Shown here in pieces: positions 1 to 20,243 of a stretch of 20,243 nt of DNA. How positions within the stretch are numbered: position 1 is the stretch's first letter; every line of letters begins with the position of its first letter. The translations under genes and the position numbers were made by a program. Source of the DNA: Saccoglossus kowalevskii. Taxonomy: Eukaryota; Hemichordata; Enteropneusta; Harrimaniidae. The stretch lies in the NCBI RefSeq assembly GCF_000003605.2, contig NW_003124905.1, forward strand, positions 52,218 to 72,460. The letters run 5' to 3'. The notes beneath the pieces are model-generated. The model was not told the origin of the DNA, did no database searches, and saw nothing but the letters and a program-made list of their open reading frames with translations.

Positions 1-1263
1 GATAACAAAAAACCGTGTACGCTACAATTAGTTACAATTTACAAAGTTGGGCAATCGCTGTGACTAATTTGTTGTGACAAATAGAGCAATACGAACCGGT
101 GATTATTCCTTGAATTGTTTGACTTAAAACGATAATCGTCGATAAAGCTTGAAGCTCTAAATAAATACGCAATGCATAATAATGACTTTCCGAACTCTGT
201 GCGTGATGCTACATCAAAATGCTTATATTGTGATATAGACATTCGGAAATATATTGAAATATACGATAAATAAGACTCCGGTAAAATGATACGGTAAATA
301 AATGTATGTTTATTTCAGTGATATATATTAGTGTATGTGTCGTTTTTTTTTTTGCAATAGAGATAAGTGTCCGTGTGAAAGCGTCTATACGATTGTATCT
401 GGTTACGTCATCTTCTTGGAATACTTCTCTTATCAACCATTTCCCGCAGAGTTTATCGTATATTGCGTCAGTCTAGCGATATAAACCATGCAAAGTTTCA
501 CTCCGCAATGAAATAATAAGCGTGGATAATTTAAAAGTCGTGATTAAAATCTAGGGTACATGGAAAACATCTAGCACAAGATCATTAAGAGGTTTGAGTA
601 GTTGCATGTAGTCCAGTTATTCACACACCATAGAATTTCGGTTAATCATCAGAGATGAATTTCATTGCATCCGACAGATAAGTGGAACACTGTTACAGTA
701 CTAGTTTGATCATTATAACTTCTGGTAAGAGCCGAGACCCAAAGAGGCAAAACATATTTACGTCTTTTCATAGAGCGCAATTATAACATTTAGAAAACAA
801 ACTCAAATTTACCGGATCTACTTTCATCAACGATAGTTTACCAGGTGAGAACAAAATAAAGAGTCAGTGTGGTAAATCACAACGATTGAACAGTATATGT
901 CAACATGATACAGGTCGTTGGGAGCTTAAATTATTAATAAAAGGCCAATTTCAGCAGTACAATTACTTTGATAAAGTCCGCGACGATAAGACAGATGTGA
1001 ACTGTGTTTGTGTAACGAGCGTTTAAATAACTTTATTGTCAACATGCCTGGTAATCAATACATTGATTATCTATCAGATAGGAAATCAACACATTTTGAC
1101 ACGCACTTGAAGTTGAATTTACAATCGTATCTATCTTATCAAGTACCGACTAACATATATTAGTTGAGTGCTTTGACTGTGGCATTAAACTGTAGTTCTA
1201 ATAAATGAACATGTTACTTCGATTCGTTCGATCATGATCATGAGTCTGATGCGACAACCACTA

Positions 1264-1297
1264 TGCTATCAGTGACTTTACTAAGTCACTTATAGCA
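1264..1297. repeat. 34-bp near-perfect inverted repeat (hairpin)
   Basis: The arms at 1264-1278 and 1283-1297 pair at 14 of 15 positions around a four-base loop. The arm reads TGCTATCAGTGACTT. No TTAA or other element end is seen next to it. It could be a chance palindrome, a transposon remnant or a small RNA hairpin; it is shorter than usual for a microRNA precursor. Confidence 0.5.
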
Positions 1298-2808
1298 CAT
1301 GCGCTTAACATCTATGCTCGACGTAGTAAAATGTTAAAATGGATTGTTCATTTATTCATTAATAAATTAATTATTCAATTCATTCTTATGATAATTCCGT
1401 CTGTGTGTATGTCTGTATTGGGGACGAGTTTGGTATTTTATTTAGACCTGCTTATAGGAGTTATGTTATACTTGACTGATGCATATACTGTGTTTTATAT
1501 TGTGAGTTCTATTTCATTGCATAGGTCAAGTACACAACAGTGGAATGTCCCGCACTAATTCACTCATGGCGATGATAATTATTGGCACATGGGCCATAAA
1601 GCACGCGATTACAATCAACTGTGATGTTTACACATCTACTTCTTGTTAACATCGAGTCGTTTGTCATATATTTTTTTTAATTAACTCGGAAATTAATATA
1701 CTGATTACTAAGCCACGTGCAAACTATGGGTAGTTATTGTACATTGCAGTACTGTACGTGACGAACCTGACCGAAACCTGTTTTCTCGAGTCACGTGATA
1801 TTCATGTAAATTAACGTCGTGGCCATTCCGTATATAAAACGTTCATGTATTGTTTGCGTATTAGGTTAATTGTCAAATGATGATGGATGGACTGCCAGGG
1901 TTATATTTTATCCAAATACGAGTAACACGAACTATTAACGCAATAAGTCAATCAATGCTATTCAACGACACATCCATCAAATGTAACGTTTTCATGATAT
2001 CTATCATCAAGTCAAAACACCTACTTTGACGACGTAGGAATGCCAATCCACTCTAAATCAAGAGTCAATACGATCAGTTATTGCTATGTTCGTTGGAACA
2101 CAGCCTGGCTACGGTATAGAAATTGTCGTTGTTATGCACCGATTTTTTTATACCCGGAGCTTATAAAAATACAACTCAAAATGATCTCTACGCTAAACGT
2201 ATACGTTTATGATGTGGGTTACTGTAAACTGTGATTGCCAGCGCAAAACCAAACACAAGTAAACTTATACCAAACGTTGACACGCCACAGTTCAAATTTT
2301 GTGTAAGAAAACAATGTATTTTACACGCGCTGTATACGTACATGTAGCATGGGACCCATACCGAATACGACGCGAGATGAGGTTCCCAATACGGTGTGCC
2401 AAACATATATAAATTCAAGCCCGTTAAATGCAACGTTTCATCCAATTTATCGACATACTGAGTGTGTCTGTGGAATACGTAAGAACTCTATACTATATAT
2501 AACAGTACGTTGTATGACACGATTTCAATAGAACAGTATTATGAAAAACAACTACTTTTATGTTATTTTGTATTACGAGGCGAAACGATGAAGGTGAATT
2601 AATAGCGACTAGTGTTTTCTTTTCCCAGCTTATCTGCGCGTTCATATAGTTTTACCTGTGTCCATTCTTGGCATTTGTAACGCATTCTCTAATAGATTTA
2701 GAAATGTTAACACCTTTTTCACGATTTGACGATAAATAAGTGCCAAAAATGACGAGAATGGACACAAGCACGGTTATATCATTTCTGTTTCAGTTTCAGC
2801 ACATAACC

Positions 2809-2842
2809 AAAACGAGTGGGAAAACGAGTGGGAAAACGGGGG
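2809..2842 (+). repeat. 12-bp tandem repeat
   Basis: The unit AAAACGAGTGGG occurs twice exactly (2809-2820, 2821-2832) and a third time in degenerate form to 2842. It is a short minisatellite-like tract in non-coding DNA. Confidence 0.7.
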
Positions 2843-3743
2843 AAGGATCCACAATTTGACGGCCGGAATCATGAATGCCGAACACATTACATCATGGTCG
2901 TCACGACACTCGGGCTGGTAATCTGATTTCACGGCTGAGTGAGCGGAGACGTGTCCCACGGCTAACTTGATAGCTTCTGGGGCTTTACGAATAAACTGAA
3001 CTATTCCCGTTGGGGGAATCTGCCAAAACTAATCAAATACCTTAAGACCGATATCCATTGTGCTCCCGAGTGTTTTCAGTACGAGATTGTTAAAAGGGAT
3101 ACTTAAATTGGGTTTCTTTTGAAGGGACGGTCAATATGTTTTTGTGAATGCAAATTAAACTGATACGGGGTGAAATGTGTGGGTCATACGCCACGATACG
3201 TAAGAATAAAGTGACGAGAAATGTCACTGATCTTTCTCGCGTAATCCTTTCTTAGCTGCCATGAAGACGGAATTTCACGTTTCATCTCGCCAGTCACCAT
3301 TCAAACAGTTACTAATTACAACCAAATCGCACGAAGCACACCAACAAATGCCCTCCCTAGGGAAGGCGGAAATCTGCAACTCAGAAAGAGATCACGGCCA
3401 CTTTAGCGGCTGGCATGATAATCACGTGATAGCGGTACGCTCGTACGTCTGTGTTATGCCTGTAATTTAGCGCATAACAGACCAGTCATAGGACATAGAA
3501 TATCACAATGTTGACTAATTGAGCTTGGCAATTTCTAATCACACGAATGTACTAGTAAATGAGACTCACTACAATGGGAGACTGATCACGTATTAATACG
3601 TTTGGCAAAGGGGGGTATAAAACTCAATTTCACTAACAAATTGAACCTTGAAACCAAAAATGTTGTTTGCGAAGATAAAGCACAATACTGAGAGTTATGG
3701 CAAACTAGAAAACAATCGTTAAATTGAAATTCTAGAAAGCTTT

Positions 3744-4049
3744 TTAAAGGGCGGTAGTCGTCGCGCCACGCATGCGCGAGATATATGGGTCTCATATTAA
3801 CAAATATGGTGACTTTGGCTGTTGCGCAGATCAACGAGTACAAACTGAGAGGTTACCAAGCTTTAATTAGGTATTTTTTTAGGTGATTGGAAGGTATCAA
3901 AAGAGTCAACTGGGGCAATTAGTGCAAGTCGCGCCCAGGTCAAACCTCATCATACATTTCCATTAGAAGAGCGCGTTGGATTGTGGGGAAATCAATGTTT
4001 ATCAACACAAATGTCGCACATGCGCAGCTCGACGACTACCGCCCTTTAA
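3744..4049. mobile_element. TTAA-flanked MITE, Kolobok-like (subfamily 1)
   Basis: A 306-bp non-autonomous DNA transposon with terminal inverted repeats. The left end reads TTAAAGGGCGGTAGTCGTCG and the right end is its exact reverse complement over the same 20 bases. The TTAA at each outer edge is the likely target-site duplication. Further in, both ends carry a CATGCGC core. TTAA targets with termini starting AGGG are known for the Kolobok superfamily (such as T2-type MITEs of Xenopus), so this is the best guess; piggyBac also targets TTAA but has different ends. It has no transposase and lies in the presumed intron after copy A. Confidence 0.75.
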
Positions 4050-6924
4050 CTATACATTTGAGTGGGAACTCTACATCAACGCTTAGAGAAACTTTTATAA
4101 ATATGAAACTGTTAATTCAAGCTCTATGGCCGTGTATGTCTAACTCCACGAGCGGTCTATTAAAAATAAAATAATTCATGCAGCGCACACGATACCCATC
4201 CAACCGAAGTAACTGAAATGAAACACACCAGGGAATCAGATTGTGGATTCGAAAAGTACATTCATATGTAATTCGACACTATGTGCGTGTGGTATGAGTT
4301 AGCGCATCTTCTTGTTGCCAGTTGCGAATCGCGATATTTCCTGAATTAAAACACATGGATGTATCCGCGCCTTTTAGTTGCCATACCACACACTGCAATA
4401 CAAGAATCCCTGTGATATCGGAAAATTTAATAATAGTTTGGTTGCTGGTGTTTTGAAGATCAGTTTACGACAGTGATATAATGTAAGAATGTTGGCCACG
4501 CGACTAGTGCGTTTTCCATATTACAGTGAGAAGCAAAAATGTGGCATATAACAGTCAGTCGCCATGGTTATATATATATACAACTGTACAGAATAGTCGT
4601 ATGCCTACTCAAGAACTCCCATACTATCCCTAACACGGTACCTACAAGTATCACACGTTTTCAATATTTTGTTAACCCAAAAATTTGGAAATTGTATGAG
4701 AACAGTACAGATTCACCAGCGAATCAAGCAGATATTGTAAAAGTATATTTTGGAGGAAAAAATGCAAATTCAACCGTCATATTGATTGGATTCATTTTGA
4801 ATGACCGGATGTAGCGGCTGATAAATCAGAGGAACATTTAGTCACTAAAATGTTGTTGGAAGAACTAAGAACTTAATTCAGTGCATTTCGACACAATGAA
4901 ATGAGACACGAGTACTGAAATGATCAACATTGTTCTTGTGAAGGATTGGGGGTGTCCATTAACACTACCCTAATTACGATCACATAGTCTGCTTCGGTAT
5001 TTTTGTAATGTAAGTTGGTGCACGAAATTCGATTTAAAAAAATGCATTGGCATACTTTTTTTGAAAACCACACTGTGTCGTGATCACGTGATCCAATCAA
5101 CATGACTCTCCTTGTTGACCTTCTTGTTTGTTATAGCATACCAACATAATTCCGACTGCTTGGTGCCAGGCATTTTTACCGTGCCATTCTAACATCAGCC
5201 TCACCCGAATTCTGATTCATGTTCATAAACATTGCAATCATATTTACGCTCCGTTAAAAAATTGAATTGTACAACTTGAAACCAGCTTCAAATAAATGCA
5301 TAACGATCATTTTCGCAATTGAATTTACTCAGAGTGGCAGTTAGCAAATTTCGGGGGTTAACTCGTTAGGTATCGCGCTACAACACCTCCGTATATTTAA
5401 TAATATTAAGCGGACATGTGTTGAAACAGCTGCGATATAAGTATACTTGGCGTTGCTTAGCATTTGTCGCTGGCCGAGAGAGTTGCCACTCTGTCAATAC
5501 ATCACGCAAAATAAATACACTTGTTTCAAACATTTCCATATTACTGTGAATAAAATGAATCCACTGAATACCTACAGAGGTCTGTACACGCAGTATACAG
5601 CTACAGACTGTGGTTCTAAATATCCTTACGTTCTAGTTCTACTGATTACATTGACGGCGGACAGCCCACCACTTGGTACGTAGAGGTGAATTTAAGCTTG
5701 GACACCATGAAATATAGAAATGCTGTTTTTAAGTCTGTTTTGATATTTGTCGCATGAGTTCGATACAGGGATTATGAGAGGAAATCATACACACTTCAAC
5801 CAGTCGAAAAGTACGATTTTTTTTAGCCACACTTTATGCATATTTCTTTTTAAATTTTCTGCAGTTTCTATATTGAATTTAGTTCAAATGTACTGAAGTT
5901 TTGATTACCCAAGGGTTTTGATCAAAACCGTTCAAAATATGACAAAAAACAAACAAAAAAAAACAAATTATATCATTTATTTCAATTCATTTTAGGGAAC
6001 TTGACAAAGACGTCAGTGTACTGAGTCAATCGGTTTTCGACCGGAACAACTGAATCTAATTGTTTACACGAAACTTTAGGACAACACATGCATGTCAACT
6101 TTCGTACGTGGATGTGAGTCCCTGTACAGGAAGTTTACCTCTAGTGTGGAATTCTGCAGCAGAACATGAACAAGTAACACCGGAGTGTATTCATAATGAT
6201 TGCAGAACTGGAAATAGACTACAGTCTCTTATTTTGTTTTCTAGGTCGACCATATTTTTTGTTGTTGGATGGGATTGATGATGACACCGTGACTGAAACA
6301 AATATTTATTTCCAATAACGTTTTATTCCGCCCCAACCATCAAAGACAAATATTCCAAAAAACTCGGTACACCGTAACCATGTCGATCACTGAAGGCGGC
6401 GATGCAATTAAAAATGGGCTTTACACTCGTTTGCATAACAACGTCCGTTTAGACGCGATGAAGTGGCCTGGCATACTATTTGTGAATAGTCAATAATCCA
6501 AGGCGCGCATTGCCCCACTTGTCAGCGAATCAGTTAGTTAGACAATGCGATACAGTTGTACAATCATGACTAAACACGTCCACGGCGAAACCTTATAATT
6601 GGGGACTTGGGTTATCGTTGTTTGGAAGCATTTTCGCGTGACAGACGGTGGCAATGCAACGTGAAAGTGAGTGCATCGACGATACTTTTAATGATCTATA
6701 TTCAATAAGAGTTTGTTTAACGAATATTTATTTTATCGTGTCGGGTCACAGTTCGAGTACATGTAAATGCATGTCATTGATGTCTTCTCTGACTTGTTTT
6801 TCTTTTATGGCAAGTGCACGCGCGAACCGTACTTATGATAAGTTCATGTTTCCACAGAGACGATATCTATGTTTGCGACAGCTTGACAGGGCTCTGCGGA
6901 CATCTCTCTATCAAAAGGTTATTT
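4050..6924. other. Non-coding, presumed intron
   Basis: No family match was seen. Plus-strand open frames at 4539-4814 (91 codons) and 5447-5683 (78 codons) have low-complexity, AT-driven composition and no recognised motif. A perfect GATCACGTGATC palindrome with an E-box core lies at 5082-5093, and a 10-bp inverted repeat at 4287-4296 / 4382-4391. Confidence 0.45.
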
Positions 6925-7145
6925 AATGCGACATCGCGGTCGAACACAAGCACCTGCACACCTTGTCAGAGATTTCTCAAAAGGAACACCCGTGAAGGAA
7001 TGAATCTCCTCCAGTAGCTTTGGTCTGTGGTACATTCGCCCATGGTAGGTGTCAAGCCCTTTTTCGATGCTTAGCCAAAAGTGGGATTTGGACTCGGGAC
7101 GTACCAAAGACGGGCCCGAAAAGGAAACCGCTAGACTACCGGAAA
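6925..7145 (-). mobile_element. tRNA-derived SINE-like element
   Basis: On the minus strand an A-box-like sequence (TAGTCTAGCGG, 7138-7128) is followed 44 bases later by a B-box-like sequence (AGTCCAAATCC, 7094-7084). This is the spacing of an RNA polymerase III tRNA promoter. No full cloverleaf or 3' CCA-type end can be formed, and unrelated GC-richer sequence follows, as in a SINE body. The head (about 7145-7073) is the supported part; the tail end near 6925 is a guess, and no target-site duplication or A-rich tail was identified. The body domain was not recognised. Confidence 0.5.
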
Positions 7146-8067
7146 ACTTTAACGACTACAAGGAAAACGAAGGCTACAACAATGGCTTTAAAAGTGTGAG
7201 CATTTTTATACCCATGTATTGAAACTGGTCAGCGCGATTGAAACAATTTAACGATTTTTGCATATACAAATGTAGATCCATATTTATTCAAAAAACAGCT
7301 ACCCTGAACAGCTGAAATCAGCCAGATATTTAAACCCTGAATTTAAACCTATTTGGACAGTAAAAAAGGCCCATACATATTCCTAGAATTATTAAAAACA
7401 GAGCAAATTTCTCCCAACGGGTATTACTATATTGTGTCCCGGGAGTATTTAGATTAACAGACCGTATGCGGGGCGGGATTGTACCAAAGGTCACCCACCC
7501 CGGCATCTCTCAAAGTATATCTGAATGTATGCCATTCTGTTCAAACTACAGCTTTTACTGATCGTCAATTTCCCTCGGGTTCCTGAACGGGAGACATTTC
7601 GGGGACATGCATAAAGCGCCCATCCTGACATTCGTTACAGCATGTTGCTGCTGGTTATCGTATTCTAACGCTGTATATGTGTAGTAGGTAGGCCGATAGA
7701 CCTTGATATCTGAACTTGGTGATGACATTATCGTGCTATTACGTAATCATCGCGGAATTGATTTTATCTAATTTTCTGCATGAAAGCATCCTTTTTTGTG
7801 AAGCTAGGTGAATTCGAATTTAATTGCAATTTCCGGCAACAAAGGGAACAGGGCCGTCCACGTACTCACTAAACGATGAGAACTGCCCACGGCGCAAATT
7901 ATTGTCGTTGAGATAGTAGTAGTCAATCAGTTGCCCGGGCAAAAACTAAGGTCTGAGTTTTCAGCCAAGATCGCTTCTTTTTTATTAGAAGCAACGCATG
8001 CCAGAAACAGATTGAAGTATTTTTAAAGACATTTAATGCATGGCCCATATGGCAAACGTAAGAAAAC
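7146..8067. other. Non-coding, start of intron after copy A
   Basis: AT-rich sequence with no clear exon, repeat or RNA gene. On the minus strand it directly follows the copy A donor, so it would be the first part of the intron. Confidence 0.5.
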
Positions 8068-8075
8068 ACTTACTT
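8068..8075 (-). other. Splice donor of copy A, phase 1
   Basis: On the minus strand the exon ends AGA-A and the intron starts GTAAGTG, a near-ideal 5' splice site. The intron begins at 8073. Continued reading leaves the family alignment at once and hits a stop at about 8033. The first intron bases can pair with a CTTAC ten bases on, giving a weak 5-bp hairpin over the donor. Confidence 0.8.
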
Positions 8076-8833
8076 CTACCATTCGGCATGACAATTTCTT
8101 GAAGGATTTCTGTATAATTAGGATCGTCGTCCTCCACAAATTTTTGGTACCCAGCGTAATCCTTGCCAGGGTCGTACCAACCGGCTCCGTGAAATAAATG
8201 AAATAGGGCACCGCCGAACAGCCAGCAGTCTCTGTACAGAGACACGTCTTTGTCATTGTGGATAATAGCGGTTGTATTCCACTGAAAAGTTCGTAAGATT
8301 TCCATCATAAATTCGGCCATTTTCAAAAAGGGACCGTGGGCTCGTGTCAATGTGCGGAAATCCTCTTTTTCTTTCATGCCGAACTCTTTAGCCTTAGCGC
8401 CCGTCGTTATAAAAGGGATATTCCAGTGGGACGCGAATCTTGTGACCGCGATAGCGGCGTAATCGCACGCTGGTCCGAAAAATACGTCTACTTGCCTTTC
8501 CGTAATGAATTCAACAGCACGGATAGGAGACACAAGATTGGAACACCGAGAATCCACTTTTCTAATGGTCACATTCACCTTCCGATTCCCGAAAAAATTG
8601 CCTTGCATAAACACTTTGTTTACAGCGATGTCGATTGCAGGACATACCATTTCAAACCTGTATGGATAGTGTCGTATTTCCGGTGGCTCGTCAGTGTCCT
8701 TTGGAAGAATGACGGCGATTTGCACTTGAATTACATCTTCGTCAGTATTCTTCAACGGGTCAAAGAAAGCGTATTCAGATTGGAAGAACGCAACAATAAC
8801 AAATAGTATTCCGTAAGAAACGACGTAGTTCAT
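8074..8833 (-). CDS. First coding exon of an NPR-like receptor (copy A)
   Basis: Encodes 253 whole codons plus one base of a natriuretic-peptide-receptor-like extracellular domain (ANF_receptor family, periplasmic-binding-protein fold). The start is the ATG at 8831-8833, in good context (CACC before, A after); a further in-frame stretch upstream begins only with TTG. Residues 1 to about 22 form a signal peptide with a hydrophobic core (GILFVIVAFF). Family marks: Cys97 and Cys123 in the GPACDYAA block (120-127), matching the first NPR disulfide; ASHWNIP (134-140); GAKA (145-148); LTRAH (162-166) followed by KMAE; and YRDCW with Cys203. N-glycosylation sequons lie at N87, N186 and N239. The frame has no stop or frameshift. 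It ends at a GTAAGT donor after the first base of codon 254, just where NPR proteins continue with the V-I-Y-I-C strand, so transmembrane, kinase-like and cyclase parts must come from later exons not seen here. It could be a cyclase-linked or clearance-type (NPR-C-like) receptor; the exon cannot tell. Confidence 0.88.
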
Positions 8834-8925
8834 GGTGACACGATGCAATAATAAAAAAATATATAAATTTAAAGGAAGTATATCAAAAATTGCGTATATT
8901 CCTAAATGCTATATGAAAGGCGGGT

Positions 8926-8935
8926 CTTCTTATAA
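8926..8935 (-). promoter_or_regulatory. Possible TATA box of copy A
   Basis: On the minus strand this reads TTATAAGAAG, about 95 bases upstream of the ATG. Used as a TATA box it would place transcription start near 8900 and leave a leader of roughly 65-70 bases without an obvious intron. A second TATA-like run at about 8856-8870 is nearer the ATG and may be chance in AT-rich DNA. This is pattern matching only. Confidence 0.2.
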
Positions 8936-9230
8936 CTACTCGACTTCCAGCTGTGCGTGGTTCTACCTGCAGGCGGTGACCGCGGTAACAACTTGCAATG
9001 AATCGAACAAAGTATAAGACGTAGAATGCGGACACATTGACACAAGACGCTTGAACAGACCGAGATGACTCGAACTGAGCCACTGTCGATATCGCATTGG
9101 CCGACGTGACACAGCATAGACAGCGTAAAAAAATCCGCGGAACCGTGCGCGTGTGGACGAGCCGGTCGGTAACACTCACATGTTATCCACACACATACTG
9201 TGTTTTACCTCACCGGCGATCGCTTATAAC
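8936..9230 (-). promoter_or_regulatory. CpG-richer upstream region of copy A
   Basis: The stretch before copy A is richer in GC and CpG than the DNA on either side, and by chance is open in several minus-strand frames at once. That pattern suits a promoter or leader region better than protein coding; none of the translations resembles a known family. A separate promoter here is what an alternative-first-exon gene would need, but no transcription start can be read directly. Confidence 0.25.
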
Positions 9231-12200
9231 TCACTAAACGCATCGCTTATCAGAATGAACTGGTCTGTAAGTTTGAATGGGCACTCTACTCAAGCACCAT
9301 GAACGCATGCGCAATACCGATGACAAATCGCCGTGTTTATAACTGTTCAGATGCAGATCGACACTTTAATTACACCCACGTAACAATTTCAGCCCCCCCC
9401 CGTGAAAACAATACTAGAGATCGATTGAAAGCGAAAAACTCATTAATTGCAATGTACTCTAATTAATTAGAATCTCGATGTCATTGTCAAGAACATGTAG
9501 GAGGTCATACTACGTACTACACTGAGTCCCTGGCACCCCCAAAACTGCATATTCCAATATTGACATTACGAGTTAAGCAAGATATGTATATATTGTATGC
9601 TATTATCATGAAATACGACGCAAATCGCCCCTGACTGTCATTGTGTGGTCTGACACCAAATTGTCGCTACGAAGGCAGTTAATAATCACTTGATTTCATT
9701 TCGAATCAACATGTCAAATCGGAACGGACTGTGAACCGTAGCGTATCGCTACAACTCGGTTAACCGTGCGAAAAGTATATTTTCAACTCAAAGATCTCGG
9801 GTGTATACGTCATTTGACTTAGCGAGCAGTCTCGATGTGAAGATTTATTTGCGGATGTTGTGTGTGATACGTCAGTCGGTTTTGCCTCTCACAGTAAGAC
9901 AGTAACGCTGATAACAGTGACCTGCGAATGCCACATGCCACAAATTCTATTGTCGCTAAATGACGCATTTACTAGGCAATAGAGCGCCCGCATAAGGTCA
10001 AACTGAAATTGCACGTGTTGCTCGTATAACGTTGAGGGATACAAAGTGCGAGTGGCCATTTCAACCAATGACGTTGGTAGACATGCACTATTGGAATAAT
10101 TTTGACCTATATATGTGGTTAGTATTACTGGATCATTTTATTTCGATCTACATAGTCAGTTATTACTGTGATCATTTGCAATCAGTATAGGTGGAGATAA
10201 ACATCGGCCAACTGCGTTTGCAATAATCATGGTAGCGTAATGTTTAGGGTGACGCGTAGTCCATTATTTCATGAACAAGACCAAGAATTAAACTTGCTTA
10301 CTAGTCTTAATGTTTTTCTTTTGAAAATTATAAAAACAAATGAAAATAAAGGGATTGATCCAGTGGTATTAAAGTAAAATCTATCGCTGAAGTAACCAGT
10401 TTAATCAATCACAAACTAATATAAGTAGACTTCCTTCTGTACCCCACCCCACACTTTAACATTAACTCTCTAACGGCCCCATAATTTAAATATACTTGCG
10501 CTGAACAGCCCTTTAGCTATCTAGAGGGGCATATACAATCGAATTAGGGTGGGGTGTAAAACACATATGACATGTGACAGAAAGAAAACTATTTGGTTGC
10601 AATTGGAAGCCAAGTGAGGCTACATATGACTCTGTGACTCATGTGTGCTAGGTTAATTAATTAATTAATTAATTTATTTATTTAGTCATTTATTTAGTCG
10701 TTAGTCGCTGTAGTCGTTAAACTTGTTGTTTATTATTATCAACTGAACAAATACTCATCACAAGTATTCCATATATGTAAGACTTTCGGTGTTCTGATAT
10801 AAACACGATAACAAAAATACAGTATTCATAGTAGCCACGTGACGTAAAACTGTTTACCTAATATCAATGCGCGAAATGTATAAAACAAAGAAAGGTTAGC
10901 TATTATCGTAGTACGTCGGAGCATGGCTTAACGACTCAGATCCTACAGGTGGTGTAAAGAAACGTGTTCATCGCCCTCTGTCGGACGAAACGAATACAAT
11001 TTGCGCCTCCAAGGGTCTGAGTAAGACAGGAATACACGTACAATCATAGACGAACAGTTTATTCTGCAAATTAAGGTGGTCATCACGATCATCGATATCA
11101 TGTTAAAGGAAGGAGGCAGCCGCGCGTTATGATGCGGTCAAATGTTATGTTCATAAACAGAGCATTTGATATGTAACGACAATCACCTTCCTTAAAAAAG
11201 GAAAATTTCGGCAAACAACAAGTTTTAAATGAAAGAGCTCCACAAATGTAATTTACAATTTTGCTTATATCTCTTTTTATTCTCTAGATAATTAACATAT
11301 CACCAGCAATGTATTATGGGTAAAATATGACACCATAGCTACAAAAAGTGAGAAAATAATGACAAATCAATCGTACGTGACTGACACTATTTCTTCCAAG
11401 GAATTGGGCGTTCACTCGTTCTACGCACTGGTGGGTTTATGATTCAAAATATCTTGGCAGGTTTTCATTTTTACGGGACTTTTACAAGAATTAGAGTATA
11501 TTGCAGATAAAGGAAGAACATTTTTAATAGATTTTAGTTGATAATTTTTTTTAATTATATACGTTAATTAATAACCTCTTCCAAATAATCTGTAATGTTT
11601 AGGTCATTGACCTCTTGTCGGACGGGCATAATCAGTCACAATTGATGGTGTTGTTCACGATCACCCATCACTAAGCGACGGTATCTCAGAACAACCGACG
11701 ACATCAGATGAACTTAGCTTGGCAAATACAGTCTTATCTCTGTTATTTTGGGAAGTGTGTTTTTTGGTCACGATTGATTCCATGCGAGTCAAGAGCTGAC
11801 AGTTATAGGTAGATTTGCCATGTATCATTTGTTATCCTGTTCAAACACTTAAGAAATCACAAATCAGTCGTATGTGCGTACTTCTATCGTGCATTCCAAA
11901 AACTGCTTATCACGACAATATTTGGCTTATTTTCTTTGTTTCAAACACGGTTCGTTTCTATGATTTAACTCCGGATCGTCGCTGGATGTGCCCGCCGAGG
12001 ATGGTTCAAGCAGATCTACTCAGCGATTTATACTGCCGAGAGAGCATGCTGCTGGGAGATATGGAAACCGCACCCCTCCCCTCGGTGCGAGGCGCACCAC
12101 TGCACCATACCTAGATCCTGCTCAAGAGAGACTGTGATTCTATTCACGAAATACTATGGCCGGTCTTTTTTTCTTGACACTGTTTTACAACAAACATTCA

Positions 12201-12607
12201 TTGTTCATGACTTACGTGATTTAGCCGTGGCATCTTAGAACGTAAACTGGACAAATCCAACGTAGATATTGGGGTTGTTTATTTTTTTTATTTGAGAAAG
12301 TTTTACGTAAATCGGCTCTCAGCTATTACGACAACATAAACACTCTTTAGTAAGCTTAACGAATAGACAAATAGAGGATGTTTACTTCAAAATATTGCCA
12401 TCGACGTTTGACGTCAGATCACAAACAATTCTCCGAAAAAGTATCAACACATTCTCGCGGTCGTACAGCCTAGCCTTCGTGAAGTACTGCCGAGAATTCT
12501 CCCTCACAAATATCAAATAAAACATCGACTAAGTGAAACCATTATTGGATTTCCTCGCAGGCAAGAAGAACCAGCTAAAGATTGACATGAAATATGCTAT
12601 GCAATGA
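9231..12607. other. Non-coding between the receptor exons, left part
   Basis: No exon recognised. It holds the C run at 9393 and the TTAA/TTTA repeat. A GC-richer patch at about 11970-12120 carries the end of a 99-codon plus-strand frame (11815-12114); its translation was not recognised. None of the later receptor domains was recognised on the minus strand. Confidence 0.45.
10653..10700. repeat. TTAA / TTTA simple repeat
   Basis: A run of TTAA units passes into TTTA units, followed by imperfect TTAGTC copies to about 10720. An ordinary microsatellite. Confidence 0.85.
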
Positions 12608-12771
12608 TTAAAGTGGGAGGGTCGTCACCTGCGCACGCGCGGAAATTGAGTCCCAAGCGACGATAACAACACACACTAAAAACGCAAAGACTTATGGGTA
12701 GACGCTTGTTTGTAAACAATGACACGCTATGGCCATCTGACGCATGCGCAGATGACGACTCCCCGCTTTAA
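12608..12771 (+). mobile_element. TTAA-flanked MITE, Kolobok-like (subfamily 2, copy 1)
   Basis: A 164-bp element bounded by TTAA on both sides. The left terminus starts TTAAAGTGGGAGGGTCGTCA and the right terminus, reverse-complemented, TTAAAGCGGGGAGTCGTCAT, followed on both sides by CTGCGCA. The interior carries a near-palindromic TTGTTTGTAAACAA. It shares terminal design and the ATGCGCAG block with the 306-bp element at 3744, so the two subfamilies were probably mobilised by the same transposase. It is non-coding. Confidence 0.75.
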
Positions 12772-15351
12772 GTTACAATACAACTTGAATAAACATTTTT
12801 CCTCAGGTATGAACATGATGAATGTTATTGCAGTTGCTAAAACATGACAAATACACAGTAAACCCGAATATATGTAAAGTTAACAAAAATTAAAAATCCG
12901 AATTTATTAATTCAGTTAGGTACAAGGTTGCGTTAATTTTTCGGCAACCATTCATGAGAGACCCTTCGTAATACTCATAGAACTTTCAACATTCACACGT
13001 GCTAAACAGTAGCGACGAGTCCATTTTCTTTGTCGTCCATAGCTTGAGGACAGTTTTTTCCGCAGGCACAGTATTCAAAATTTTGGTGTTAAACCCGCCC
13101 TAAACCAGGAGCGAATTGCCGATCGCTGCATAAATACGCCTTCTGATCACATCTTTCAACACGCATGCTTGCTGTTAATGCATTTGACACAGTTTTGAAA
13201 ATGTGAGATTTGTTTTTTCTCAAACAAGAACAAAATCTAAGAAAAGTCTAAAACTAACTATGGTGTTCATTTATTCAATTACTTAAAGATAATGTATTTT
13301 AGAATATATGTCACAAGAAAAGGATACAATGCTCACTCAGATTGTTAGAGTTATTTATTAGTTCGATTATCCCAGTTTAACTTGATATCATTTCCTTTGT
13401 GAGCGTTGATATCGTCTCACCATTCCGTTAACACCATTTGAAATACAGTAGTTGTTCAGGTGCGTTCAACCGCATGGTTCGTCTCGAATATTTACAAATT
13501 AAAACAATGATGGGCATTAACCGTTCTATTAAATATCATAGCATCGGATCGCCATGCATTGCGAGAAATAAACACAAGTAAGCACTCATTCAATCGTGAC
13601 TAAAATGGCTGTGTCTCGGGTAATTAGTCTTGTGACACGTCATTAACAACACCGGAAGTTTTCTTTGTATTTGACTAAAACCCTGAGAAAAATAAACATT
13701 TTTGCGGCGCTCATTAATCAATGTTGAATATCGAGGGAAAAAGCATCAAGTTTTAATCGAATACAGTAACTGTATGTTCCCGAGTAACTCGATCACATAT
13801 GCATCAGCTACTGAGTTGAATATATACTAATTCAACATATTTACCGAAGGTCTAACAAAATGTCAAATACGAGATTCAGTCACGTCGGGAAAGTGTCGCC
13901 TCCGGAGTCGGTAATATTTTGCGTAAACACTGTCTAAGTGTACTTATACATGAAACGCACTGTCTGTTCCGAGACGACGGTAATTCCGTGTATTTACCCT
14001 TCATATGGGCGCTCATGCACTCACAATTGAGTTGTATATAGCTGACCGCTTTATGTTACGTAAAACGGAAAGACTGAGTTGTTGAATTATTGAAGAGCAG
14101 ATAACGAAGTGGCATGTGCAGTCGTCAGTGAAAACGTTCGTTTGGTGCCATGAAGTAAATGAGCCCCGAATCTCAACGTAATTTAGCTTGGATATTTGCA
14201 TAAATCTGAATAAGACTCAGCCTCATTGAGAGTGAACCCAGTGGTGCACATATAACCAAGGACAGAATAGTGTCTGTTTCTTGTACACGTAATTACTGTG
14301 CCATGCACGCGCACCAAGGACCTGTATTTCAGTCACTGTTTGCTGTGTCTCCATCAGTTACAGTCAACGCCTTAATCATTCGACGCCATTCCTACGAAGC
14401 GTGAAATTAAAAGAAAAAATGTTGTCACGGTGCGCTCAGATGGCACACAGCGATAAATAACAACACGCACAAAGACAGTATTGATAACTGGCATATTACA
14501 TGCGTCTTCAGACTTCCAGTGTACATGCCATGGATACGAAATTCTGCCCTCGGTTGCAGAACATTGGCACATATAACGAGGTCCAACCCATGATCTAACT
14601 AAGTTGTCTTTGGACATCGACGCGACATGCAGTCCATTTGTAAAGACGATATGCTTTGTATGTCGCTTTTTTTTCAAATATAGCAAAGTTACAATATGTT
14701 ATTCCACACACAAATTGCTTTGAAGTTGTTACGTGTATAACATCGCACAGTGATAAACTAACAGTTAGTCACTTTGTAAGTGTAATGACATATACAATGT
14801 GCTATAAACAACCATCATATCTCCTTGAAGAGCAAGGTAGATTTGATAATACGCTCAGGACAACTGATCACACTAACTTCACGTGGAAATAGACCTCAGT
14901 TATGATACGATGCCGGTATGTGGCCTTGTTGTCAATCAAACAGCTGATGGATAAGATGTTATGAGTCGTTAGCAGGGCGAGTAATTGAAAGAACCGGTAA
15001 CCCACATCGCATAAAGTCGAACTAATGCGATTAAAGTAATTCTGCTTGGTTGGGTTATATTGTATTTCAAATTATCGCTATGGGTAAGCTTTTAGAATTC
15101 ATTATTATATATGTTGCAAACAGGACATGAAGGTCAATTGCAATACTAATTATTGCAAGTATATATATCATTGCAACTGAAGCGACTGTGGAGCAACAAT
15201 TCAACACACATTTATAATTTGACGACGGAATGTTATACGTTGGAATATTAGAATTCTAATGCCGGACTACGAACCCATCGTCGACTTCGAACAATATATT
15301 TAACCAAAGTTTGAGAAGTGGCTGTAATATAACAATGCGATGGACCAAGCA

Positions 15352-15363
15352 CCCCCCCCCCCC
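15352..15363 (+). repeat. Poly-C tract (12 C)
   Basis: An uninterrupted run of C in AT-rich DNA. A shorter run of nine C lies at 9393-9401. Such runs are length-variable and prone to sequencing error. Confidence 0.8.
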
Positions 15364-15589
15364 ACAAATTTATAGCTATCGCATTTAAGAAAACAGATTA
15401 CACGTTGCGATTTAAAAACAACATTTACTTGTATTACTTATTCAGAAAAATATGCCCCTTCTAATATCTACTTCCTTAGTAATAGTTTTCCAAGTTTTCA
15501 TAACAGAGTTTCATTATGTAATCGAACGGAGGACGAGATTTCCATGTCTTTCGTTTAGCTAGATAAATGTATTGTAGAACAAACAAGCT

Positions 15590-15617
15590 CTTTTAGCGTG
15601 GGAACATACGCTAAAAG
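15590..15617. repeat. 10-bp perfect inverted repeat
   Basis: CTTTTAGCGT and its exact reverse complement lie eight bases apart. No element boundary or gene is next to it. Confidence 0.5.
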
Positions 15618-16877
15618 TGTCCATAATTAGCGTGACAAGGAGAAGTTATCATGCCCGCGTAAACCACTGCTGTACTGCTGATCTAGCCCGATACGGAATA
15701 TAGGAGATAATTTCCATGTTATTACTAACAACGCATGTTGTTTTGTTGGTTGTTCACCGGGTAACGCCTCGTGGCGAGGGCATGACTGCTATGTCTGCGT
15801 AGTAGATGATAAAATACTGGTATGTATTATAAACTAGATTTATAAAGAACAATCGAGCATTGTTTTGCGTTCGCAATTCCGACTGTAACGGTGTCACTCT
15901 GCCGTTTTTATTCCTGGCCAACGTTTCCCCATCAGCCAAAAAATAAAGTATAAATCTTTGCAGTAACAGACAGTAACTCAGTAAATACTCCTTTTTTTCA
16001 AATCACCGATATCGTTGATTCTTCTTACAGTAGAACCTACGCTGTCGTGACGCCTTCAATCGCAGAACCACAAAGATTAAATATTTTAACGCTTGAATGA
16101 TCGCCTTCTTCTACGTCTCACGACGTCAAGTTGGCCTCACTGTTTCCGTTTAATAGATATGATTAAGTGACTGACTGCTTTGTTTGGTTCTTTACGTGGC
16201 AATCATATACCTGCCCACTTGACCTAACGACACGAGGACCTTTTCGCATGATAGTTTTAACACCTACTGTAAGCGTTTTCGCAACAGGAGACCAAAGTCC
16301 GAGACCACACAGGAGGTGGGATTCATCACATTGGGCGTTTGTTTTCGCCAGGGCGTGAACCGCAGCTGAACAGGATAGCTAATATATGATGGAATAACTT
16401 GACGTACTAAGGACAAAATATAAGGATTTAACTCGTATTGTTTCTCCACAATTTCTATTCAACTCATATAAGCTAAAGTCGTGATGCTGAATTTAAGAGC
16501 TAGATCGTAGTAACAAAATCTTTGAATTTCGAAGCGGATTTCATATAATTGCCAGATTATGTAGGGTTATACCTATATGTGTAATCCCCGACTTGGCTTC
16601 GTCAATTGCAACACACGCAAATTAAAGTTGAACGATTTCGACTTTTCAATTTTAAAGTAAGCAACCGGGGAAATCTCATAGAAAAGTGACTTTTAAACAA
16701 AGCTGACTCTGTGTATTACTCGACATCACAATACATACAATCGTATAAACACGCAACATGAGATTCAAACTCATCATGACTCCGGCTAAGCGCTTCGCCG
16801 CTGCAATCAGACGCGTACCTCGCTACGACACGCTAACTGCCCGCAACAGACAGAATAGCGTGTAATAAGCGCGGACA

Positions 16878-17034
16878 TTAGAGCGGGAGGGTCGTTACCT
16901 GCGCACGCGCGAGAATTGAGACCCATGCAATGACACGCTAAGAACGCAAAGCCTCATGGGTAGACGCTTGTTTGTAAACAAAGAAACGCTATGGCCACCT
17001 GACGCTTGCGTAGGTGACGACTTCCCCGGTTTAA
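16878..17034 (+). mobile_element. TTAA-flanked MITE, Kolobok-like (subfamily 2, copy 2)
   Basis: A 157-bp second copy of the element at 12608, in the same orientation and roughly 85% identical by eye apart from an internal indel of about nine bases. The right flank is TTAA; the left has decayed to TTAG. Both inverted termini and the TTGTTTGTAAACAA interior are kept. Open frames that cross it run through the element by chance. Confidence 0.75.
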
Positions 17035-19902
17035 GTGACGGAGAATTTCGTAGACGATTGCGAAAAAAACACATGTATTCAAATTGTAATCTGTCATACA
17101 ACTTCCAACTTGAAAACAAATGCGAACAAATTCCTAGAAAGTTGTTGTGTGTATCAGCTGTGAGAATAACAGCCACCGCACGCGATGCGCAAAACAGTTA
17201 TTTTTGTATCTTGTTGACGAGATGCTCCGTCTTCCAAGCAAAACATGATACAAAACAGGTTCATATATGTTCTAATACAGTTTGAACTTCAGAATACGTA
17301 TGCGTTGTCATAATTACTACCAGATTAACAGTTTTGGTTGCCACTGTAAGAATAAGCTAGATTAAGACGCACACACTAACGTAAAAGTGTGCAATTCTGT
17401 TTCCAGTTAATCGGTGGGAAGTGATTGTATGATCGCCTCTCACAGTTAAAACTGCAGACGGTACTTCTAGAATCGTACGCGTGGTTGTCACAGTTTATAA
17501 CGACTAGTTCAGTCATTTCCTTTTTTTTAAATATATGTGGTGTTTTTATATAAGGCAAATGAATGACAGATTAATCAAATAAAACGCAATATTTTGACAT
17601 TGTCTACGAACTTTAATTTATAATACACAGAAGAGGCATTGTATATGCATTGTAATACTGTGTCTTTGTCATCAAAGACTATTTAGTTCGGGGTCAGTGC
17701 TTGGGCCCAGACCAGCCCAGTGTTCGATGTAGTGTGTGTGTGTGTTGGCGGGGTCGGGGAGGGGGCGGTAAAAGTTTTTATAAAGAGCCATTTGATGTGA
17801 CCATCGACAATAATTTGAAACAAATTAGGAAACTGTACAAGAATGCGATTATGAACACATACCCTTTTTTATCTCGTGTATCAGTGCTTAATTTTTTATT
17901 AATTTTTTAGTAAAACTATGCTGGAAATTCCTCTACTATAATAATAATAATAATGAAGCTATTTTCAAACTAACCCTCGGAACACCAACGTTGGCATCAA
18001 CGGAGACTACAAACCACATGGTATGGGGTTGATGAAGCTAATTCGAAACTATTATCAGAGTTGTAGAATGGAAGCTCGCTGACATTTGCGGAGAAGAATA
18101 TAATTGCTTTTGAAAAAATACAGTGTTTTCTTAGTTTGCATTTTTTCAAGTATATATAAGTTACAAAAAAGTAGCGGGGGATTCTAGAAAAAAAAACGGA
18201 TTAAGAGTTTTATTGAATGTTTTTGGGAGTTGGGGAACTGTTTAAGTTGCTTCAGCCAATATGATAAGGTTGGTAAATCGTGAGATTCGTTATCACACAG
18301 ACACAACATGCCTAGGTGGAGGGGGTGGTCAACTTGTGTTCGTATTTTTCCGTCGTCACTTGCACCAGTAATGGATACGTAAGTACAGATGTCGGGAATG
18401 TAGCCTGACACTCATATAAGAAAAACGTAACTATTTTTACCGATTCAACATCAGGTCTTCGCCGTAATTTTGTTTATATGCTATCAGACATCTCAATTTG
18501 TAGAGATGTTGGCATTTTACCCTGCCTGTGACTGATTGTGAAGGATATATTTGCTACTAAACAACAACTTGACGGGTCGTTGCTAGGTTAAATTGATCGC
18601 ATTGTTAAAGGGTGTTAATAATCGAGACACGAACCCCAATGTTTACCGTTTCGAGAGAGTATTAAGGTAGATCAACACATAACTTAAAGCGCTTTTCATT
18701 GTGTTATATCTGCCACCAATCCAGACATCCCTAGGGAAGTAGCGTGATTGAACTACTGACAACAATGGCTTCTGTGGACACACGCAGATACTTACATTTG
18801 ACGTCAGCAATACAGCCATCAATTAACAACCAATCACCAGCACATCACCGAGATGCACAGACGAATGGGCGATATTTGAATAGTATACGTGGATCGCTTA
18901 AGCACATTTTTAAGTCAATAAATCAGAGTGCGGAAATTCTATACAGAATATGCTCTATTGGGTTGGGCTTTATTTACTGAGTAGCAGTCATTATTGAAAG
19001 CAACGATGTCATTGAATATATGGACTAGTACATGCGCAAATAGCACAACATATGTACTGAATGTATACACAGACTTTTGAATAGTACTTGACTTTGTTAA
19101 TCATATAGTATTTACTCACAAGCTACAATTGAACGTTATCAATGGTCATGTACTTGATTCTTCTTATTTAAATACTCACAAACAATGTGCAGACACTTTC
19201 TCTATTTAACATTTGTGTTTGATGATTTACTAGGCTTAACACGCTTGCCATTTTTTCTTTTGGACGATTCTACATTTTTAAGCCTATTTTTACTAGCGTC
19301 ATAGATAATGTAATGTATATACGGGTTTCATGAGCAGCGTTTGAATCTAAATACCTCGAGGGGTATCGCGTTGTCCATACGAGAAACTTAAGCAACACAC
19401 ATTGAACGCATTCAAACTAAAACCTACACATTACAGATTTCACCCGGAAAACTGCTCTCATGTATCTATAAAATTAAACTCGTCCTGGAAGTTTGTTCGT
19501 ACATCTAGATTTTGTGATTTTGTACAATTTCTTCGCAATAATGTTGCTATTATTGGCGACTGTGAATGGGTTAGAACAAGTTGATTAATTTTACCCGATG
19601 AACAAAGGAAGTGCCGTGCCACGGACCCACATGACCACGTTCCCGTACTTTCTTGCGAGTACAAAATGTTTTCTCGAATGATTATGTTTGAATCATATGA
19701 ACAATTAAAATGCTCAGTAATATAATACAAACATCTCTGTTTGTTTTTACCAGCGAATCTTTGTGCGATGTTCGTCATAGACTACCTATTTGAACCAGTT
19801 GTCATGTTATTATTCATGGGAAAATGGGAAAAAGAAATAAGATGAATAAGGAAGGGTAAAAGTATTGCGAGACTTCATTACATAGCAGCAATCGTGAAAG
19901 CG
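17035..19902. other. Non-coding, presumed intron after copy B
   Basis: No exon recognised. It includes the GT/G-rich tract and a short ATA repeat near 17938-17955. On the minus strand it directly follows the copy B donor. Confidence 0.45.
17732..17768 (+). repeat. GT repeat followed by G-rich tract
   Basis: Seven GT units (17732-17745) run into a G-rich stretch (17747-17768) with G runs of four, four and five plus flanking GG pairs. The G-rich part could form a quadruplex with two tetrads, or three with a bulge. It lies in non-coding DNA between the two receptor exons. Confidence 0.6.
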
Positions 19903-19910
19903 ACTTACTT
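19903..19910 (-). other. Splice donor of copy B, phase 1
   Basis: On the minus strand the exon ends AGA-A and the intron starts GTAAGTC at 19908. It is the same exon end, residue and phase as copy A, while the following intron sequence is unrelated, so the junction has been kept by selection or shared descent rather than recent duplication. Confidence 0.8.
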
Positions 19911-20243
19911 CTAGCCTGGGGTATAACCATAGTTTCCAGTAGCTCAGAGTAATCGTGGTCCGCTTCTGTCGGGGAATATTCACTGAACGTCTCATAACGT
20001 TTTTCGTCTGGATACTCGATTCCAGCAGCTGTCATGGCTGCAAGGAGCGCAGCGTTGAAAAACCAACAATCCCGGTAGGGCCGGGTACCGTCGTCTTGGT
20101 GTAATACTGCTATTCGCTTCCAATTAAAATATTGTAAGACCTCCACAAACGCCTCCGCCATTTTGATGTGCGGAGGGTGAGCCCTCGTGATCATTTCGTA
20201 TTCCTTTTCTTCCTTGTGTCCGAAGGTCTGAGCTTTCGCCCCC
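19909..20243 (-). CDS. NPR-like receptor exon, 3' part (copy B, partial)
   Basis: This is the C-terminal 111 codons plus one base of a second NPR-like ligand-binding exon; it is open to the right edge of the window, so its start and signal peptide are not seen. Reading begins with GAKAQTFG, continues through ITRAH-PP-IKMAE, an FNW strand, YRDCWFF and a YSELLETMVIP helix, and stops at a GTAAGT donor. Aligned with residues 145-253 of copy A it is about 40% identical by eye, with blocks GAKA, TRAH, KMAE and YRDCW shared and a two-residue longer acidic loop before the last helix. None of copy A's two glycosylation sequons in this part is kept. The intron phase (1) and last complete residue (Arg) are the same as in copy A. 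An internal ATG at 20192-20194 is not the start, because the homology continues upstream of it. No inactivating change is visible. Confidence 0.82.

Follow-up and report, generated by a model that had tools for sequence, protein, structure and literature searches.

At the UGT1A and clustered protocadherin loci, large variable first exons lie in tandem, each with its own promoter, and are joined to common downstream exons. A comparable layout is considered here for a receptor of the natriuretic peptide receptor (NPR) type in the hemichordate Saccoglossus kowalevskii. The stretch of DNA that was analysed, called the window, comprises 20,243 nucleotides and corresponds to positions 52218-72460 of contig C1740 (NW_003124905.1), in an assembly of 572 Mb that consists of 4830 contigs and contains gaps. 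Two homologous NPR-type first exons, designated A and B, are located in it; common downstream exons and separate promoters, which would complete the likeness to UGT1A and the protocadherins, are predicted for this locus.

By sequence, vertebrate NPR1, NPR2 and NPR3 belong to the same ligand-binding family as A and B, and their first exon is likewise long: according to the passages that mention these codons, codon 209 of mouse Npr3 (PMC5154531) and codon 205 of human NPR2 (PMC7374443) lie within exon 1. The ectodomain of human NPR-A is encoded by exons 1-6, and the isoforms described in the corresponding passage alter exons 9, 5a and 4 by deletion or by insertion of three residues, with no swap of exon 1 among them (PMC10665444). 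The nearest precedent found was Caenorhabditis elegans gcy-28, which is called an orthologue of the atrial natriuretic peptide receptor and whose isoforms c and d were used with separate promoter fragments in the experiments that the passage describes (PMC9249223); the likeness that can be drawn from this passage is limited to these separate promoter fragments. No NPR-type locus with alternative homologous exons for the binding half was present among the matches listed in the open-licence literature. A preliminary description of this DNA, made from its letters, had stated that no natriuretic-type receptor with such a layout was known, and gcy-28 softens that statement.

The sequence data favoured, with moderate probability, the reading that a single NPR-type receptor gene has A and B as alternative first exons and splices either of them to a common downstream set of exons. 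This reading explained the data best because B is under selection, shows no gene body (the exons that follow the first one) before A and has a junction compatible with that of A. That B is selected yet bodyless before A, together with the recurrence of the B-then-A order elsewhere, was stronger evidence than the matching splice donors.

Exons A and B

The features of the window are as follows.

8833-8074, minus strand: exon A, an NPR-type first coding exon, from ATG to donor; 760 nt, i.e. 253 codons plus 1 base, phase 1
8068..8073, minus strand: 5' splice donor of A, AGAA/GTAAGT, starting from 8073
20242-19909, minus strand: exon B, 3' part, frame open to the window end; 111 codons plus 1 base, phase 1
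19903..19908, minus strand: 5' splice donor of B, AGAA/GTAAGT, starting from 19908
8834..19902, minus strand: B-to-A interval, which would contain the intron of the B transcript and the promoter of A
1..8067, minus strand: downstream side of A, in which no NPR exon was detected; probably part of a long intron 1

Both exons matched the Pfam ANF_receptor model above its cut-off of 25.4 bits (A, 88.2 bits, E=7.3e-25; B, 30.7 bits, E=2.1e-7). Among solved structures, NPR-C and then NPR-A (2.8e-19) were nearest to A, and NPR-C (1.9e-5) was nearest to B. The two exons were identical in 47 of 114 aligned columns (41%), which rules out B as an allele of A. Silent sites were saturated between them (proportions of synonymous and nonsynonymous differences, pS 0.87 and pN 0.37), and identical bases were found at 62, 78 and 31 of 108 first, second and third codon positions, respectively. 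The claim that two diverged NPR-like exons lie about 11 kb apart on the same strand and end in the same phase at GTAAGT donors was confirmed. The sequence GAAGTAAGT occurred twice on the minus strand of the whole window, exactly at the ends of A and B, and not once on the plus strand. The probability that frames of these lengths would be open by chance in the neighbouring DNA was approximately 3e-7 for 253 codons and 1e-3 for 111 codons.

Exon A encodes cysteines at residues 64, 97, 123 and 203 and three N-glycosylation sequons, and the visible part of B encodes a single cysteine, within YRDCW. A GPAC motif is carried by A and by L005, a complete B-type copy (hereafter B'); it fits S(x)nGPxC, which is given as the chloride motif of NPR-type receptors in the passage concerned (PMC5225109). 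Because the window end truncates exon B, its start and any signal peptide fall outside view. B was counted as a first exon since B', which is 95% identical to it and lies on the same contig, is open from Met to the same donor. Exon A had been described as a complete first exon with a signal peptide; its frame does run from ATG to donor, whereas the signal peptide was read by eye only. A and B are homologous first exons on one strand that end in the same phase, which is one feature of an alternative-first-exon locus.

A third copy of the exon was not found in the window by tblastn, nor were relatives of exon A found in scans of viral and prokaryote contigs. A search of the whole window against Rfam at the gathering threshold gave nothing. 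The AlphaFold model of exon A, for which B was the sole other row of the alignment, had a mean predicted local distance difference test score of 35 and was not used.

The ends of nine first exons of the family were read, namely, those of A and five close relatives, two more distant exons on C1740 and locus L008 on contig C2725. All nine ended in phase 1 with an Arg codon and one base, followed by GT, and the donor of one of the five close relatives was GTACGT. A broken B-type copy at a contig end (L007) was excluded from this count because its match stops short of the donor. At all nine loci that were fetched, the exon-2 acceptors of this genome were in phase 1. Since such an end is the family norm for exon 1, matching ends alone prove little. 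The residue, phase and donor from which the preliminary description had argued for sharing do match, but as proof of sharing by themselves the donors were rejected. Judging from the junctions that were read, phase 1 would make first exons interchangeable in principle, without showing exchange of A and B.

The donor of B also bears on the possibility that B yields a short secreted protein or soluble decoy, either via a non-NPR terminal exon or through read-through of the donor, which would add a tail of approximately 30 residues before a stop. However, a donor is retained in B, B' and a copy on contig C2308 (GTACGT in C2308), a half-domain would be incomplete, and no domain over the Pfam cut-off was found in the B-to-A interval. 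Moreover, the cysteine of NPRs equivalent to that of YRDCW pairs with one encoded in exon 2. A secreted product of B is accordingly regarded as very improbable.

Selection on both exon types was estimated from their copies. Between B and B' (111 codons), the synonymous divergence (dS) was 0.38 and the ratio of nonsynonymous to synonymous divergence (dN/dS) was 0.07, with no internal gap or stop. For A-type copies, dS could be estimated in three of six pairs, and the dN/dS values of these were 0.11, 0.16 and 0.16. The pair L005/L006 gave a dN/dS of 0.046, although at a near-saturated dS of 2.8. Both exon types are constrained and B looks alive; death of B by sequence decay was rejected on the basis of its dN/dS.

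Another explanation is that B is an orphan first exon, intact but outside any working gene, the body of which was lost or never copied, so that A would be the only functional one. The failure to detect a body between B and A is consistent with this, as are the stop in the fourth B-type copy, which lies where its contig ends, and the existence of other first exons with no detected body, namely, 9 of 22 that are last in line, A included. On the other hand, the low dN/dS and the intact frame at a dS of 0.38 would be unexpected in an unused exon unless the body was lost recently, and 39 of 40 exon-1 matches in the genome had no internal stop. The orphan explanation was considered unlikely.

The search for a gene body around A and B

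Models of NPR-C and NPR-A were compared with 1154 open segments on both strands of the window. A and B stood out, and the next best segment had E=2.8. None of 155 minus-strand segments of at least 33 residues outside A and B exceeded the Pfam cut-off. Four conserved downstream blocks scored 30 or less, which was the level of the plus-strand null, whereas control blocks from exon 1 scored 49-106. Power at this stage was moderate: when A and B were cut into 400 pieces of exon size, 287 could be recovered. Among 12 plus-strand open frames of at least 80 residues, the 10 that were run against Pfam gave no match over the cut-off. When the 137 open frames left of A were compared with the 167 of the B-to-A interval, the matches were short and low-scoring, and none was NPR-like (best E=0.002).

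Sharper profiles were built from this genome's own exon 2 and from a later ectodomain exon (exon 4 in the numbering used here), with NPR-C and NPR-A added. Across the window and another 81 kb of contig that could be read, the best scores of the exon-2 and exon-4 profiles were 6.6 and 7.3 bits (E>=1). All 17 members were recovered in leave-one-out controls, each with at least 23 bits, although close sisters of some members were among those retained; the lowest-scoring member was a piece of 19 residues. Genome-wide probes for a cyclase family, NPR-C, exon 4 and exon 2 produced no match inside the window. Of the remaining parts of an NPR-type receptor (the rest of the ectodomain, the transmembrane segment and the intracellular part), these searches revealed nothing in the window. 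The conclusion drawn was that B lacks an NPR body in the stretch before A. The earlier observation that no recognisable exons lie between the copies held for the NPR models, for Pfam and for the genome's own exon-2 and exon-4 profiles.

These results bear on the explanation that B and A open two ordinary tandem genes and that the body of B is absent through assembly error or rearrangement. The division of the assembly into 4830 contigs with gaps is compatible with it, and tandem receptor-guanylyl-cyclase genes of the same family do occur on one strand of contig C1297. This contig served as a positive control: each of its four tandem first exons was followed by exon-2 and exon-4 matches in order, and three of the four by a strong cyclase match. 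Whereas bodies follow each first exon on C1297, there is none in B-A or in the corresponding pair formed by B' and an A-type exon, A', where the body is missing as far as search matches tell. The B-to-A interval within the window, moreover, contains no assembly gap, and no body exon was found in it with good search power. Two tandem genes, one with a lost or misplaced body, were judged to be quite unlikely.

Several other features of the window were recorded. Two direct copies of an interspersed repeat (12607-12776 and 16877-17039), 82% identical over 171 columns, lie in the B-to-A interval. Inverted repeats of 39 bp (3744-3782 and 4011-4049), 87% identical, bound approximately 306 bp, and the element at 3744-4049 looks like a small non-autonomous DNA transposon. 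The CpG observed/expected ratio of the whole window was 1.16, so this mostly non-coding stretch bears no sign of CpG depletion.

First exons elsewhere in the genome

The preliminary description had suggested a search for more copies of the first exon, and this search gave at least 40 exon-1 matches genome-wide; all such match counts are lower bounds. Contig C1740, of 528 kb, carried 12 of these matches, and its readable part contained no exon-2 match, one exon-4 match, one exon-5 match and one cyclase set. The genome contained at least four exons of the B type, including a broken one at a contig end, and at least four of the A type. B' is followed by A' at a distance of approximately 20 kb on the plus strand of C1740. 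No exon-2, exon-4, exon-5 or cyclase match was present between them in the genome searches, the only ones to cover this interval, where an assembly gap is possible.

Two further exons on C1740 were noted. The fourth B-type exon, at the contig end (C1740:527855-528069), consists of two overlapping match pieces, one with TAG. An exon-1-like match at C1740:146113-146622 lies in an open frame of 569 residues, the N-terminal part of which is Thr/Ser-rich, unlike the other first exons that were read.

An A-type gene on C2725 provided a view of a downstream part. It runs on the minus strand, with exon 1 at 89009-89776 followed by exon 2 at 70243-70536, more of the ectodomain at 68.7 and 66.5 kb and cyclase exons at 45-44 kb. 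Exons 1 and 2 are approximately 18.5 kb apart; with a first intron of this length, the exon 2 of A would be expected well past the low end of the window. The C2725 exon 2 (L029) contains one in-frame TGA and an extra stretch relative to NPR-C, and because of the TGA this copy may be broken. A third type of first exon was found at C1740:129223-129933 (129304) and at C2725:208510-209097; the two are 80% identical, and each is followed downstream on its own strand by an A-type exon. According to search matches alone, the third-type and A-type exons of C2725 are 119 kb apart with no body match between them, and a single body follows both.

The genome-wide pattern was examined with 43 first-exon-like matches, comprising the 40 from the exon-1 search and 3 seen only by the Pfam scan. 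Not all of these are proven first exons: the C1056 entries belong to a gene type that is split in another way and match only in part, and the match at C3947:139016 is short. In 8 of 21 adjacent same-strand pairs, body matches lay between the first exons, and in 13 there were none; bases were read for two of these empty intervals, B-A and the interval at 146-129 kb of C1740. The excess of first exons over bodies in these counts is suggestive but falls short of proof.

On the minus strands of C3981, C3947 and C355, two, three and two exon-1 matches, respectively, lie in line before a single downstream set, one of the C3947 intervals being partly unreadable. The C3947 exon at 173 kb, which borders this unreadable sequence, adjoins an open frame of 12972 residues.

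A broader proposal is that the NPR-type family generally uses arrays of interchangeable first exons that are intact and diverged, with two first exons to one body on C2725, C3981 and C355, perhaps three to one on C3947, and several on C1740. It is supported by the 80% match of the third type between C1740 and C2725. The proposal was rated lower in view of the partly unreadable interval on C3947 and the individually weak control matches on C1297, and it is put forward as a tentative possibility that may well prove wrong.

The proposed arrangement and its meaning

According to the proposed arrangement, the A/B gene would lie on the minus strand, and its product would probably be a receptor guanylyl cyclase. 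Each of the two exons would come with a promoter, a start codon and a signal peptide of its own and would code for the N-terminal portion of the ligand-binding domain, ending one base after an Arg codon. As a first exon, A should have no working acceptor, so RNA begun at B would skip it, and the donor of B would join the next acceptor, that of the phase-1 exon 2 used by A, outside the window on its low side. The resulting receptors would have a common remainder and carry one or the other of two N-terminal binding halves, approximately 40-46% identical. The predicted parts of this arrangement are its transcripts, a promoter for each first exon, the exon 2 used by both and a possible difference in ligand. 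Of the original idea of interchangeable binding halves, the layout stood as the best fit to the evidence, while the shared exon 2 keeps the status of a prediction.

Several observations weigh against alternative first exons at this locus. Exon 2 of neither A nor B was found in the window, and acceptor-like sites occur upstream of the ATG of A, the top-scoring one reaching the 95th percentile in a crude scan. The plus strand of C1740 after A' gave no body match, and the sole close exon 4 readable on this contig lies on the minus strand, opposite to B' and A', which also agrees with the tandem-gene explanation. The dS between B and B' was 0.38 versus 1.41 between A and A'; these unequal values imply that a single block duplication with no exchange afterwards did not produce the two pairs. 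On C2725, the searches revealed no exon of the B type.

The genome-wide counts add to these points. At least 2 of the 13 empty intervals hold long unreadable stretches, namely, C1740 129-72 kb and one on C3947. Among the 22 last-in-line first exons, 13 had downstream body matches and 9 did not, the latter including A itself and several on contigs with unchecked ends; absent bodies can therefore reflect contig ends, gaps or lost genes. The exon-2 and exon-4 matches on C1297 were individually weak (E 0.002-1.4), so diverged bodies elsewhere could be missed, whereas bodies of the A/B type should not be.

Receptor diversity of this sort is usually credited to whole-gene duplication. If A and B are alternative first exons, swapping the N-terminal half alone, while the remainder and the output of the receptor are kept, would be a cheaper way of widening what a cell can sense. 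It would also become testable whether exon 1 sets ligand choice in the NPR-type family. In draft genomes, the numbers of first exons and cyclase domains may then disagree for a biological reason. If arrays of first exons are a general device of the family, a few receptor bodies would carry a larger repertoire of binding halves, as clustered protocadherins do.

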